Below, one piece after another: positions 10,158-30,252 of a DNA stretch of 44,395 nucleotides. The notes beneath the pieces are model-generated. The model was not told the origin of the DNA, searched no databases, and saw nothing but the letters and a program-made list of their open reading frames with translations. The position numbers were made by a program, and so were the translations under genes. The DNA is from an uncultured Ignavibacteriales bacterium (GTDB lineage Bacteria; Bacteroidota; Ignavibacteria; Ignavibacteriales; Melioribacteraceae). Position 1 is the first letter of the stretch, and each line of letters opens with the position of its first letter. The DNA is taken from NCBI GenBank assembly GCA_947311785.1, contig CAMZLW010000089.1:1-44395 (forward strand), in the 5' to 3' direction.

Positions 10158-12290
10158 ATGATGATAACAAAAGAAGTTGAAATAGGCGGAAAAAAGCTAT
10201 CCATTGAAACTGGACGCTACGCAAAACAGGCAAATGGTGCTGTTATGGTGAGGTACGGTGATACAGTAGTTTTAGTTACTGCAGTAGCTTCAAAAAAACC
10301 AAATACTACATTGGATTATTTCCCAATGTCGGTAGAGTATAAAGAAAGATATTTTTCTGCTGGAAAATTTCCTGGCGGATTTATTAAACGCGAAGGTCGT
10401 CCAACAGAAAAAGAAATTCTCGCTGGTCGTTTAATGGATAGACCAATTAGACCATTATTTCCAAAAGATTATAACAACGATACTCAAATTGCAGCGTTTG
10501 TATATTCTTACGATGGTGTAAATAATCCTGATGTAATTGCAGCAATTGGTGCTTCGGCAGCATTAGCTATTTCGGATATTCCATTCCTAGAGCCACTTGG
10601 TCAGGTAAGAGTTGGTAGAATTGATGGAGAGTTCATTATCAATCCAACTTTTGAACAAGAAAAAGAAAGCAATTTAGAATTAATTGTTGCTGGAACCGAA
10701 AGTTCAATAATGATGGTTGAAGGGGAAGCACACGAAGCAAGTGAAACTGACATATTAGATGCACTTAAATTTGCTCATGTAGAAATATTAAAAATAATAA
10801 ATTTACAAAAAGAGTTAGTTGAAGCTTGTGGTAAAGCTAAAATGGTTGTTGAAGAAAAAGTTATTAACGAAGAACTTGTAAAAGAAGTTAACGAATTAGC
10901 TTACGACAGGTATAAAGAAGTTGTTTATTCAAAATTAGCAAAAGAAGTTCGCTACGAAAAAAATGATGAAATAAACGATTCCGTTCTTGAAGCATTGGCT
11001 GAAAAATATCATGAAGATGATGATGTGAAAGACATTAAAAATATTCTTCACGACATCGAAAAAGATTTGATGCGTAAAAGAATTTTAGAAGATGGCAACC
11101 GTCTTGATGGAAGAACATTAACTGAAATTAGACAAATTACTTCTGAAGTTGGAGTTCTTCCACGAACACACGCTTCGGCATTATTTACACGTGGTGAAAC
11201 TCAATCGCTAACAACTGTAACCCTTGGTACAGCTCGCGATCAACAAATTGTTGACGGACTTGATGATGAAGTTAAAAAATCTTTCTATCTTCATTACAAC
11301 TTCCCTCCATTTAGTGTTGGCGAAACTGGACGTTACGGATTTATTGGAAGACGTGAAATTGGTCATGGTAATTTAGCAGAGAGAGCATTGAAATATATTG
11401 TTCCTGTAACTGAAGATTTCCCTTACACAATTCGTGTTAACTCCGATATTCTTGAATCAAACGGTTCATCCTCAATGGCAACAGTTTGTGCTGGTTCATT
11501 AGCAATGATGGATGCTGGCGTTCCTGTTAAGACTCCAATTTCTGGTATTGCAATGGGGCTAGTAAAAGAAGGCGACGACTTTGCTGTCCTTTCTGATATT
11601 CTTGGAAATGAAGATCACCTTGGTGATATGGATTTCAAAGTAGCTGGTTCCGATAAAGGCATTACTGCAATTCAAATGGATATCAAAATTCAAGGTATCT
11701 CTTTTGAAATTATGGAGAAAGCTCTTGAACAAGCCAAAGAAGGAAGAATGCATATTCTTGGAAAAATGAGCGAAGCTCTTTCTGCTCCACGTGAAGCAAT
11801 TTCTCAGTATGCACCTTCATTAATCTTTATCCAAATAGACCCCGAAAAAATTGGTGCTGTAATTGGACAAGGTGGAAAAGTTATTCAAGGCATTCAAAAA
11901 GATTTCAATGTTGAAATTAACATCGAAGAAGATGGAAAAGTTGCTATTGCTGGCGTTAATACTGAAGAAGCTCGTAAAGCTAAAGAATACATAAAAGCAA
12001 TTGTTACTGACCCCGAAGTTGGAATGGTATATAAAGGTACTGTAATTAAAATTACAGATTTTGGTGCGTTTGTAGAATTTGTTCCTGGCACACAAGGTCT
12101 TCTTCATATTTCACAAATAGCTCTTGAACGCGTTAACAAAGTGAGCGACGTTATTAAAGAAGGTGAAGTAATTGATGTTAAATTGCTAAAAATGGAAAAT
12201 GGAAAATTCTCTTTATCTCGCAAAGCGTTATTGGAAGATAAGAATGCCGCAGCTAAAAAAGAAGCAAGCGCAGAAAAGAAAGAAGACTAA
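10158..12290 (+). CDS. pnp: Polyribonucleotide nucleotidyltransferase (PNPase)
   Basis: A 710-residue phosphorolytic 3'-5' exoribonuclease. Two RNase PH-like domains are separated by a helical linker: the first contains FPGGFIKREGRPTEKE, the second GETQSLTTVTLGT and VNSDILESNGSSSMATVCAGS. A KH domain (IGAVIGQGGKVIQGIQ, about residues 560-575) and an S1 domain (GMVYKGTVIKITDFGAFVEF, about 617-636) close the protein. The tail is rich in Ala, Lys and Glu. Two consecutive ATGs (10158, 10161) could start it. E. coli pnp autoregulates via its leader; no matching hairpin is obvious here in the 13-base gap. Confidence 0.97.
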   Translation: MMITKEVEIGGKKLSIETGRYAKQANGAVMVRYGDTVVLVTAVASKKPNTTLDYFPMSVEYKERYFSAGKFPGGFIKREGRPTEKEILAGRLMDRPIRPLFPKDYNNDTQIAAFVYSYDGVNNPDVIAAIGASAALAISDIPFLEPLGQVRVGRIDGEFIINPTFEQEKESNLELIVAGTESSIMMVEGEAHEASETDILDALKFAHVEILKIINLQKELVEACGKAKMVVEEKVINEELVKEVNELAYDRYKEVVYSKLAKEVRYEKNDEINDSVLEALAEKYHEDDDVKDIKNILHDIEKDLMRKRILEDGNRLDGRTLTEIRQITSEVGVLPRTHASALFTRGETQSLTTVTLGTARDQQIVDGLDDEVKKSFYLHYNFPPFSVGETGRYGFIGRREIGHGNLAERALKYIVPVTEDFPYTIRVNSDILESNGSSSMATVCAGSLAMMDAGVPVKTPISGIAMGLVKEGDDFAVLSDILGNEDHLGDMDFKVAGSDKGITAIQMDIKIQGISFEIMEKALEQAKEGRMHILGKMSEALSAPREAISQYAPSLIFIQIDPEKIGAVIGQGGKVIQGIQKDFNVEINIEEDGKVAIAGVNTEEARKAKEYIKAIVTDPEVGMVYKGTVIKITDFGAFVEFVPGTQGLLHISQIALERVNKVSDVIKEGEVIDVKLLKMENGKFSLSRKALLEDKNAAAKKEASAEKKED

Positions 12291-12314
12291 TAAATAATTA
12301 AGTAAATAGGAGAG

Positions 12315-12391
12315 ATGTCATTCCCACATGTTTTTAGTGGGAATCTCTCACTTTACTTTAAGATTTCCGATAGAAGTATTGGGGAATGACA
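12315..12391. repeat. Dispersed palindromic repeat, copy 3 (pnp-dusB spacer)
   Basis: The ends GTCATTCCC (12317-12325) and GGGGAATGAC (12381-12390) are inverted copies of one another. An inner hairpin pairs CATTCCCAC (12319-12327) with GTGGGAAT at 12336-12343. The element aligns along its length with the copies at 27271-27344 and 30179-30252, with more differences and small indels. It occupies about half of the 160-base pnp-dusB gap and may fold as a terminator in RNA. Confidence 0.75.
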
Positions 12392-12451
12392 GCAAAGTAT
12401 GGAGAGTTAAATTTACTCTATTTTTGACTGTTAGAATAAAAAGGGAATGAA

Positions 12452-13498
12452 TTGAAACTTGGTAAACTGGATTTAGGAAACAAATTAATTGTTGCTCCAA
12501 TGGCTGATGTTTCGGATGCTCCTTTTAGAAAAATTGCAAAAGAGTATGGGGCTGGTTTAACTTTTACTCCGATGGTAAGTGCTAAAGGAATTATTGATAA
12601 CGAATTTCATGCACTCAGAATTTTTGCATTTGCAAGAGATGAAAAACCTATTGGAGTTCAGTTACTTGGTAATAATCCAGAATATCTTGCTGGGGCTGTG
12701 CATGAATTAAAACGCTACAAGCCAGATGTAATAGATATAAATTGTGGTTGCCCAGTAGAAAAAGTTACAAAGCTAAATTTTGGAGCACAATTGCTCGACG
12801 ACCCAATTTTAATGGGGAAGCTAATAGAAGCAATGGTTAATGTGGCTGAAGATATTCCTATAACCGTTAAACTTCGTTTAGGTAAAAGTGATGGTAAAAT
12901 TAATATTTTGGAGACTGCAAAAGTTGCAGAAGAAAGTGGTGCATCGGCAATAATTGTTCACGCACGTACACGAAGCACAAAGTATAAAGATGCTCCAGAC
13001 TGGGATTGGTTAGTAAAAGTAAAGGAACAAATAAAAATTCCTTTAATAGGTAATGGTTCTCTCTTTACTCCGCAAGATATAAAGGAGATGATAGAGAAAA
13101 CCAATGTTGATACTGTAATGGTGGCACGCGGTGCTTTAGGAAATCCTTTTCTTTTCAGTCGATATAGGGAGTTGATTGAAAATGGTTCAGACCCTGGCGA
13201 ACCTGATTTAGAGGAGATTGAAAAGGTAGCAATTAAACATGCACGTTTAATTGCACGAGAATATCCTGAAGCCGTTGCTACTATTAAAGCACGAAAAAAC
13301 ATTATATGGTACTTTAAGCATTTGGATGGAGTAACAAAATTTGCATCCACAATAATGCGTACCAAAAATGTAGAAGGCGAAATAAAAATGATTCACGAAC
13401 ATGTTGAAAAACTAAAACAAAATTTTTATCCAAAAGATGATCGTGAATTAATTGACCAAAAGTTTAAAGAACGGGTTCTCTTTTGGTTAAAAGAATAA
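12452..13498 (+). CDS. dusB: tRNA-dihydrouridine synthase (DusB type)
   Basis: A 348-residue FMN enzyme that reduces uridines in tRNA D-loops. It opens as a TIM barrel with VAPMADVSDAPFRKIAKEYGAG. The INCGCPVEKVTK motif (about 96-107) carries the catalytic Cys, VKLRLGKS and VHARTRS bind FMN and tRNA, and GNGSLFTPQD and VMVARGALGNP close the barrel. TTG at 12452 is the start, preceded by AAAAGGGA. The ATG five bases upstream is out of frame and stops at once. The helical C-terminal extension is normal for Dus proteins. Confidence 0.94.
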   Translation: MKLGKLDLGNKLIVAPMADVSDAPFRKIAKEYGAGLTFTPMVSAKGIIDNEFHALRIFAFARDEKPIGVQLLGNNPEYLAGAVHELKRYKPDVIDINCGCPVEKVTKLNFGAQLLDDPILMGKLIEAMVNVAEDIPITVKLRLGKSDGKINILETAKVAEESGASAIIVHARTRSTKYKDAPDWDWLVKVKEQIKIPLIGNGSLFTPQDIKEMIEKTNVDTVMVARGALGNPFLFSRYRELIENGSDPGEPDLEEIEKVAIKHARLIAREYPEAVATIKARKNIIWYFKHLDGVTKFASTIMRTKNVEGEIKMIHEHVEKLKQNFYPKDDRELIDQKFKERVLFWLKE

Positions 13499-26494: not shown

Positions 26495-28339
26495 CTAAAT
26501 TTCAAAATATTTTTTATATTGTTCTGAGTTTATTAGTAACTCAGAGTGAATTCCTGCAGAAACAATTTTTCCATTTTCAAGTAAATAGATAGAATCAAAT
26601 TTATCCATATCAACAAGCCGATGCGTAATATAAACAAGCGATTTCTCTTTTGTAACCGAATGAATTGTGTTTAGAATATTCATTTCAGTTACTGAATCAA
26701 GGTCGGCTGTTATTTCGTCGCAAATAAATATGTTGGAGTCTTTAAGAATTGCCCTTGCAATTGCAATCCGTTTTTGCTCACCACCGCTTAATTGTTTGCC
26801 CTGATTACCAATCCAAGTATCTAATTTATTTGGCAATGCTTCAACAAATTTTTTCAATTCTGCTTTTTGCAGTACACTCCACAATTCAGAGTCAGTTGCA
26901 TCGGGTTTTGCAATTAACAAATTGCCTTTAATTGTATCGCTAAAAAGAAATATTTTTTGTGGAATTGTTGAATATACACTTCTAATATCTTCTTCCGACA
27001 TTTCATTATAGTCAATGTTATCAATGGAAATAGAGCCATTGTTGATTTTCCAAAAATTTAAGAGCAAATTAATAATGGATGATTTACCAGCACCACTTCC
27101 ACCAATAATTGCAATTTTTTCTTTTGTATTAATTTTTATGGAAATTTCTTTTAGAACTTCTTCGTTTTTTCTGTATGAAAAATTTATGTTTTTTAGTTCA
27201 ACATTTTCACCTTTTAACTTGAGATTCGATTTTTTTTTGTTTTTAAGATACCTTTGTTTAGTCAAGTTAGTGTCATTCCGTGATGCTTCTACACGGAATC
27301 TATCTTTTTTTGAGAGATTTCCAATAAGAACATTTGGGAATGACTCTGCATCAGAGGTTATCCAAAATCTTTTTTTATCTTCAATTGTTTGCTCAGTAAT
27401 TTGAAAGAGTCTGTTGCCTGCTTTAATACTATTATTTAGATACTGAATTGCGAGAGGTATTGGTAATACAGCCTCAAATGCTGCCATTGTTCCAAGAGCA
27501 AGAACTGAAAGAGATATTCCACTAATTGCTCCACTTTTAACAAGTGGAACAGCGGTAATGAATATAGCAATTATTGCAATGTTCATCATCAAGCCAATAA
27601 GACTTTCGTTCATTCCGCTAATTAGGTTCATCCTGCGTTGAAGTTTTATAAGTTTATTGTTAGTGTCATTAAATTCTCTATTATGTGTTTCAAGTTTTCC
27701 AAAAGAGATTAATTCGTTTTTCCCTTCAATTCCATCTAGGGAAAGTTCTGTAAGGCGAGAGCGTAATGAAATTATATCTTCGCCAATTTTAGCACTTAAT
27801 TTATAGGTAAGAAATGGGATAACGATACCAGCCAGTAAATATGGGATTAAAAATGCGATTGCAAACGAAATATCAAAAAATGCAAATATAACAGAGACTA
27901 AAATTCCAACCAATAAAGCAATAATGGGGGGGGACAAAACACGGATAAAAATATGTTCTAAACTTTCAACATCCGAAACAACTCGTGTAAGCAAATCTCC
28001 ACTAGTAAATTTTCCAGTCTTTGAAGGGACAAGAGGTTCAATAGATTTAAAAAACCAGACTCTAAATTTTGCTAGCAAATTAAATGTAACATCGTGCGAA
28101 AAAAGTCTTTCGGCATAGCGGAGTAGCCCACGGGATATTCCGAAGAAACGAACACCAACAATTGCGATTGATAACTCTCCAATATGTGGATGGAGTGCAG
28201 CTTTGGCTATAACATATGCAGATGTCATTAACAGCCCAATACTACTGCCTATTGTGAGAAATCCCATGAGGGAGGCAAGGAGCATCCACCATTTATAAGG
28301 TGAAAGGAGTTTTAGTATTTTAATTAAAGTCTGTTTCAC
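26495..28339 (-). CDS. cydC: Thiol reductant ABC exporter CydC subunit, with in-frame repeat insertion
   Basis: A 614-residue ABC half-transporter. The six-helix membrane domain (about 1-315) includes RFFGISRGLLRYAERLFSHD, a CydC signature. The ATPase domain (about 375-614) has GGSGAGKSS (Walker A, about 412), LSGGEQKRIAIARA and the DEITADLD Walker B with Asp replaced in the usual DEPT. CydDC exports cysteine and glutathione to the periplasm and is needed for cytochrome bd assembly. Residues about 332-357, in the linker between the domains, are encoded by a dispersed repeat. GTG at 28339 is the start, overlapping cydD by four bases, with GAGGGA upstream. Confidence 0.93.
   Translation of the reverse strand: MKQTLIKILKLLSPYKWWMLLASLMGFLTIGSSIGLLMTSAYVIAKAALHPHIGELSIAIVGVRFFGISRGLLRYAERLFSHDVTFNLLAKFRVWFFKSIEPLVPSKTGKFTSGDLLTRVVSDVESLEHIFIRVLSPPIIALLVGILVSVIFAFFDISFAIAFLIPYLLAGIVIPFLTYKLSAKIGEDIISLRSRLTELSLDGIEGKNELISFGKLETHNREFNDTNNKLIKLQRRMNLISGMNESLIGLMMNIAIIAIFITAVPLVKSGAISGISLSVLALGTMAAFEAVLPIPLAIQYLNNSIKAGNRLFQITEQTIEDKKRFWITSDAESFPNVLIGNLSKKDRFRVEASRNDTNLTKQRYLKNKKKSNLKLKGENVELKNINFSYRKNEEVLKEISIKINTKEKIAIIGGSGAGKSSIINLLLNFWKINNGSISIDNIDYNEMSEEDIRSVYSTIPQKIFLFSDTIKGNLLIAKPDATDSELWSVLQKAELKKFVEALPNKLDTWIGNQGKQLSGGEQKRIAIARAILKDSNIFICDEITADLDSVTEMNILNTIHSVTKEKSLVYITHRLVDMDKFDSIYLLENGKIVSAGIHSELLINSEQYKKYFEI
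27271..27344. repeat. Dispersed palindromic repeat, copy 1, inside cydC
   Basis: TGTCATTCC (27271-27279) and GGAATGAC (27337-27344) are inverted ends; an inner hairpin pairs CATTCCGTG with CACGGAAT. On the minus strand it reads in frame with cydC as SFPNVLIGNLSKKDRFRVEA-SRNDT. The spacer copy at 30179-30252 is about 90 per cent identical over some 72 bases by hand alignment. Repeat insertion without frame disruption into a domain linker resembles the Rickettsia palindromic elements. Confidence 0.9.
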
Positions 28340-30063: not shown

Positions 30064-30108
30064 TTATGAAAGATTTTTTCTTTGCTTTTGATGGGGTAAG
30101 ATACAAAA

Positions 30109-30137
30109 CAACAAGGCATTTTGTAAATGCCTTGTTG
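30109..30137. terminator. 13-bp perfect stem-loop in the cydB-cydD spacer
   Basis: CAACAAGGCATTT (30109-30121) and its exact complement (30125-30137) enclose a 3-base loop. Read on the minus strand it is followed by TTTTGTATCTTA, a weak T-run, 45 bases before the cydD start. It may be a partial terminator between the oxidase genes and the transporter genes. Confidence 0.6.
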
Positions 30138-30178
30138 TTAAAGTTTGTTTGAAGACTTTGCACAATCTTAAAACTACT

Positions 30179-30252
30179 CTCATTCCGTGATGTTTCTACA
30201 CGGAATCTATATTCTTTTGAAAGATTCCCAATAAAAGCATTTGGGAATGACA
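30179..30252. repeat. Dispersed palindromic repeat, copy 2 (cydB-cydD spacer)
   Basis: CTCATTCCGTGATG begins the element and TTGGGAATGACAT ends it, with an inner CATTCCGTG/CACGGAAT hairpin. It is about 90 per cent identical to the copy in cydC. The minus strand has an open frame across it (SFPNAFIGNLSKEYRFRVET), but no gene uses it here. The copy is 30 bases downstream of the cydB stop. Confidence 0.88.

Follow-up and report, generated by a model that had tools for sequence, protein, structure and literature searches.

A palindromic repeat lies in frame within cydC. It is very probably a REP dimer of the CGTC superfamily, a repeat of intergenic DNA, which inserted once into a tolerant, linker-encoding part of the gene. 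In the proposed course of events, TGTC-tagged head-to-head REP dimers, similar to BIMEs and REPINs, would have dispersed through the intergenic DNA of a Melioribacteraceae genus, and one dimer would have entered cydC at the stretch coding for the linker that joins the membrane and ATPase domains. The open frame running through both hairpins there coincides with the frame of cydC and is free of stops, so that the dimer could be translated as a tolerated spacer. The peptide is probably made and functionally neutral, and we infer that the dispersal was driven by recognition of the hairpin in single-stranded DNA.

The cyd cluster and its repeats

The window, the whole stretch of DNA analysed (44,395 nt), is one contig (C89) of a 2.85-Mb genome in 181 contigs. 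Among named relatives, a Melioribacteraceae MAG is nearest, with 82 per cent identity in the CydC protein. The cyd genes, named by sequence similarity, lie on the minus strand in the order cydA, cydB, cydD, cydC; the identity of cydC was additionally tested against Pfam and the PDB, where CydC chains are the top matches of the product of 26495–28339. Species were compared through one genome each, and the congeners are G001–G004. The features under study are:

26495–28339, minus strand: cydC, ABC transporter half (TMD plus NBD), 614 aa; open ORF with Pfam ABC_membrane and ABC_tran
27227–27364, minus strand: entire 138-nt (46-codon) cydC insertion relative to the congeners; ends known only within several nt
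27271–27345, no strand given: REP dimer in frame in cydC, 25 codons; core 27272–27344, 73 nt
27272–27301, plus strand: REP hairpin B, GTCATTCCGTGATGCTTCTACACGGAATCT; the TGTC tag includes the preceding T
27315–27344, minus strand: REP hairpin A, GTCATTCCCAAATGTTCTTATTGGAAATCT
30179–30251, minus strand: REP dimer, cydB–cydD spacer
12317–12390, plus strand: REP dimer, pnp–dusB spacer

A sequence-only reading had placed an element of about 75 bp in cydC and in these two spacers, and it is present at all three places, with the exact cores listed above (73–74 nt). The two cyd copies, described there as about 90 per cent identical, measure 88–90 per cent. All three copies fold far below dinucleotide shuffles (z −3.3 to −5.3, with 0/200 shuffles as low), and an Rfam search of the window returned no match.

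The cydB–cydD copy lies within an insertion of about 136–137 nt relative to G004 and G002, from which the copy is absent. The same spacer in G003 (L064, 2000–2073) holds an unrelated REP dimer, GTCATTGCGAGGAG...CTCGCAATGAC, and two REP families have thus struck this site. A terminator-like hairpin (30106–30141, arms ACAACAAGGCATTT/AAATGCCTTGTTGT) also lies between cydB and cydD; both of its arms are changed in G004 and G002, with pairing kept. The pnp–dusB copy has an orthologous copy in G003 and none in G001, G002 or G004. In that spacer (12290–12452 here), after pnp, G002 and G004 carry instead a small hairpin, GC-rich and with a T run (ACCGGATAAATTATTTATCCGGTTTT in G002), in the place that the REP dimer occupies here and in G003.

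Anatomy and fold of the REP dimer

The dimer consists of two TGTC-tagged REP hairpins set head-to-head, each with an 8-bp stem and a 9-nt loop. A copy is laid out as GTC-ATTCCnnn-ATGYTYYTA-nnnGGAAT-CT, a linker of about 11–17 nt, and then the same reversed. The stem (ATTCCNNN/NNNGGAAT) has AT in its first positions, the loop is of the type ATGYTYYTA and the tail is CT. Of 170 ends, 84 per cent have T as the base outside GTCATTCC (an outward A on the complement), which gives the TGTC tag. The inner 3 bp of the stem covary: 15 cells of the single hairpin have two-sided changes, a level reached by 0/500 shuffles, and the compensated inner triplets among 107 halves are CGA/TCG, GTG/CAC, CAC/GTG, CGC/GCG, GGC/GCC and GCG/CGC. 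Folding of the whole dimer into one long hairpin was rejected, with zero two-sided changes. Because the inner stem pairs covary and the long fold does not, it is most likely the single hairpin that selection, or a protein, recognises as a unit.

On each strand of the common layout, a single frame tends to run open through both hairpins. Open frames number 104, against 95 ± 9 in shuffled cores, and with no excess over the shuffled cores there is no sign of a repeat built for coding. Composite copies also occur in this genome (C93:3910, C123:3876, C132:5027, C44:20703 and C141:269), with one hairpin arm swapped for a CCCCAAAGGGGCAGGCTGTGTAAG-like stretch, which suggests recombination with another repeat.

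Copy number and genomic placement

Used as a query against its own genome, the cydC copy returned 44 matches. A covariance model trained on eight copies (threshold E ≤ 0.01) found about 54 distinct places in the 2.85 Mb, so the expectation of a multi-copy repeat extending beyond the three copies of the window was borne out. All four congeners carry comparable numbers, and 28 of the 58 genomes searched, this genome and its relatives, have at least one match. The family is therefore old, and much older than the cydC insertion; the recent spread that had been proposed applies to that insertion, absent from G003, and not to the family.

Placement is overwhelmingly extragenic. Among 50 scored copies of the genome, 39 lie in codirectional, seven in convergent and two in divergent spacers, and the median distance to the 3' end of a gene is 45 nt. 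Only the cydC copy lies within a credible gene (1/54 here and 0/62 in the congeners, the latter being the better-scoring subset), or 1 of 116 copies inspected, at odds with the earlier prediction that several would be in frame in genes. Two other copies of this genome fall in spurious-looking ORFs of 103–105 aa, and a few overlap the ends of predicted ORFs.

The cydC insertion

The cydC copy is part of one unbroken ORF of 614 aa, in which it is read as SFPNVLIGNLSKKDRFRVEASRND. CydC has 568–569 aa in G003, G004 and G002, where the segment is absent, as anticipated for orthologues lacking the element, and it is likewise missing from more remote orthologues. The insertion adds 46 residues (138 nt) from about residue 323–326. 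The repeat encodes 24–25 of them, in keeping with the roughly 25 that had been predicted, and the whole insertion is larger by 21 residues that are unexplained. The 63 non-REP nucleotides of the 138 have no convincing match elsewhere in the genome, which points to an event that was more than the plain insertion of a dimer.

In CydC of solved structures the match runs as far as residue 322 and resumes at residue 339, and the insertion thus lies in the linker between the membrane and ATPase domains, where the sequence-only reading had put it. The flanking domains are intact, also as proposed: both Pfam domains are recognised, inspection shows no damage to the Walker A, signature or Walker B regions, and dN/dS against G003 is about 0.1, similar to that of CydD, as an average that also spans the time before the insertion. 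An AlphaFold2 model of CydC built from a two-sequence alignment was set aside (pLDDT 36.5). The order of the cyd genes is common to G003, and the absence of the insertion from that genome is most simply explained if it is younger than the split from G003.

Superfamily membership

CGTC REPs have a C/TGTC tag and an 8-bp stem beginning with AT, form head-to-head dimers, show an extragenic bias to codirectional and convergent spacers, and count Chlorobi/Bacteroidetes among their hosts (PMC3733652). They have been reported without a dedicated transposase and with occasional in-frame genic copies (Di Nocera 2013, PMC3733652). The present repeat has the same unpaired tag at one end, a stem starting with AT, dispersed extragenic head-to-head dimers with the same spacer bias, no dedicated transposase gene with copies of it at the flanks, and an in-frame genic case. 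It differs in its 9-nt ATGYTYYTA loop and its CT tail, as compared by description with the published families, which mostly have a loop of 4–5 nt, a stem of 8–9 bp and a CCA tail (PMC3733652). This mismatch does not exclude membership, because other loops occur in some species and CCA describes most tails, not all (PMC3733652). The loop, the tail and the non-REP share of the insertion do count against the preferred reading.

The CGTC-tagged REPs include Neisseria dRS3, and RPE-4 and RPE-6 of R. conorii have been assigned to the superfamily; many Rickettsia palindromic elements lie within genes (PMC3733652). The sequence-only reading had likened the cydC element to these. Since RPE-4 and RPE-6 are CGTC-tagged REPs and the present element has the same tag, stem and dimer layout, the likeness holds at the level of the superfamily, and in both cases a palindromic repeat stands in frame in an apparently working gene. 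It does not hold for behaviour: the genic copy is exceptional here, whereas many of the Rickettsia elements lie within ORFs, and the present element has its own loop and tail. With the REPINs and BIMEs associated with RAYTs it shares an inverted REP doublet of ~70 nt as the dispersed unit (PMC3116915, PMC2817692), but no RAYT flanked by the present REP was found in this genome or the relatives scanned.

Transposases and MITE carriage

A scan of the Y1/RAYT loci of this genome and its relatives found the present REP absent from their flanks and yielded no cognate transposase for it. At the sole RAYT-like gene found in this genome (C160), the flanking REP is of the GTAG type. RAYT-type transposase genes in this family repeatedly hold an in-frame REP palindrome of their own soon after the HUH motif (L033/L249 in G000:C160, L252 in G029:C101, L266 in G005:C35, and L224, L250 and L251), and in three of them the internal palindrome and the flanking REPs share one type.

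A different association is seen in the congeners. Some copies there share CTTAAGTTGACAGCATTG on both flanks, and a CAATGCTGTCAACTTAAG repeat borders 12 of 62 REP dimers at either end; these are mostly uniform 131-bp elements with 18-bp terminal repeats in G002, G003 and G004. Related elements have target duplications of about 10 bp (a score of at least 7 is reached by 15 of 24 and by 1.8 per cent of mismatched pairs), and one CAATGCTGTCAACTTAAG terminus adjoins an IS4-family transposase fragment (E 6e-13, under the curated cut-off). These framed elements and their target duplications indicate that an IS4-type MITE can carry REP dimers. The cores of CAATGCTGTCAACTTAAG-ended MITEs with such duplications vary, being either REP dimers or GGCTAAAGCC-type palindromes (L176, L181, L193, L273, L279, L288 and others, in G001–G004).

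Alternative explanations

The MITEs bear directly on how the cydC copy arrived. Had an IS4-type MITE brought it in as cargo and then lost its terminal repeats to decay, 131 bp and a target duplication of about 10 bp would account for an insertion of 138 rather than 75 nt, and the cydC and cydB–cydD insertions are both about 137 nt. The cydC flanks, however, match the terminal repeat no better than chance (best p 0.11), CAATGCTGTCAACTTAAG stands on both sides in 0/23 of the genome's own copies tested, and no target duplication is seen at these copies; at cydC, only an A run allows a 9-of-10 duplication to be drawn. Unlike the framed congener copies, then, the cydC copy has neither terminal inverted repeats nor a target-site duplication, and we consider its arrival as MITE cargo unlikely. 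Outer inverted repeats at the cydB–cydD copy (CTTTGCACAA/TTGTGCAAAG) are suggestive; locus-specific outer inverted repeats as a general feature of the genome's copies were rejected, with a mean over 21 copies of 7.5 against 8.0 for mismatched flanks. The broader proposal, that CGTC REP dimers spread in the genus at least partly as IS4-family MITE cargo with exchangeable palindromic cores, the cydC and cydB–cydD insertions being decayed examples, is doubtful. If true, the length of such an insertion, 131 plus 10 bp, would keep it in frame.

The remaining readings concern the insert itself. It might be functional, with an mRNA hairpin that slows ribosomes between the domains or sets cydC expression, or with a peptide that tunes the linker. 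Its location exactly between the domains and its strong fold would fit such a role, which is nevertheless very unlikely for an insert that occurs once and is missing from all orthologues seen. A selfish element adapted to genic life through a permissive peptide, in the manner of the Rickettsia elements, could draw on the frame that tends to stay open on each strand and on the superfamily common to RPE-4 and RPE-6; with a single genic copy among 116 and open frames as common in shuffled cores, it is highly improbable. An assembly artefact or a dying gene is the least probable reading: the element is repetitive and the assembly is in 181 contigs, but cydC lies on both sides of the repeat in the right order with its frame intact, both domains are conserved and the gene order is that of G003.

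Significance

In-frame intragenic REPs are already known from other bacteria, and the cydC copy is a clean new example, not a new kind. With closely related empty alleles at hand, the 46-residue extension of the linker in this ABC transporter half amounts to a natural experiment with clear bounds. The REP dimers inside the IS4-type MITEs of the congeners, for their part, offer a testable dispersal route for REPs without a transposase.
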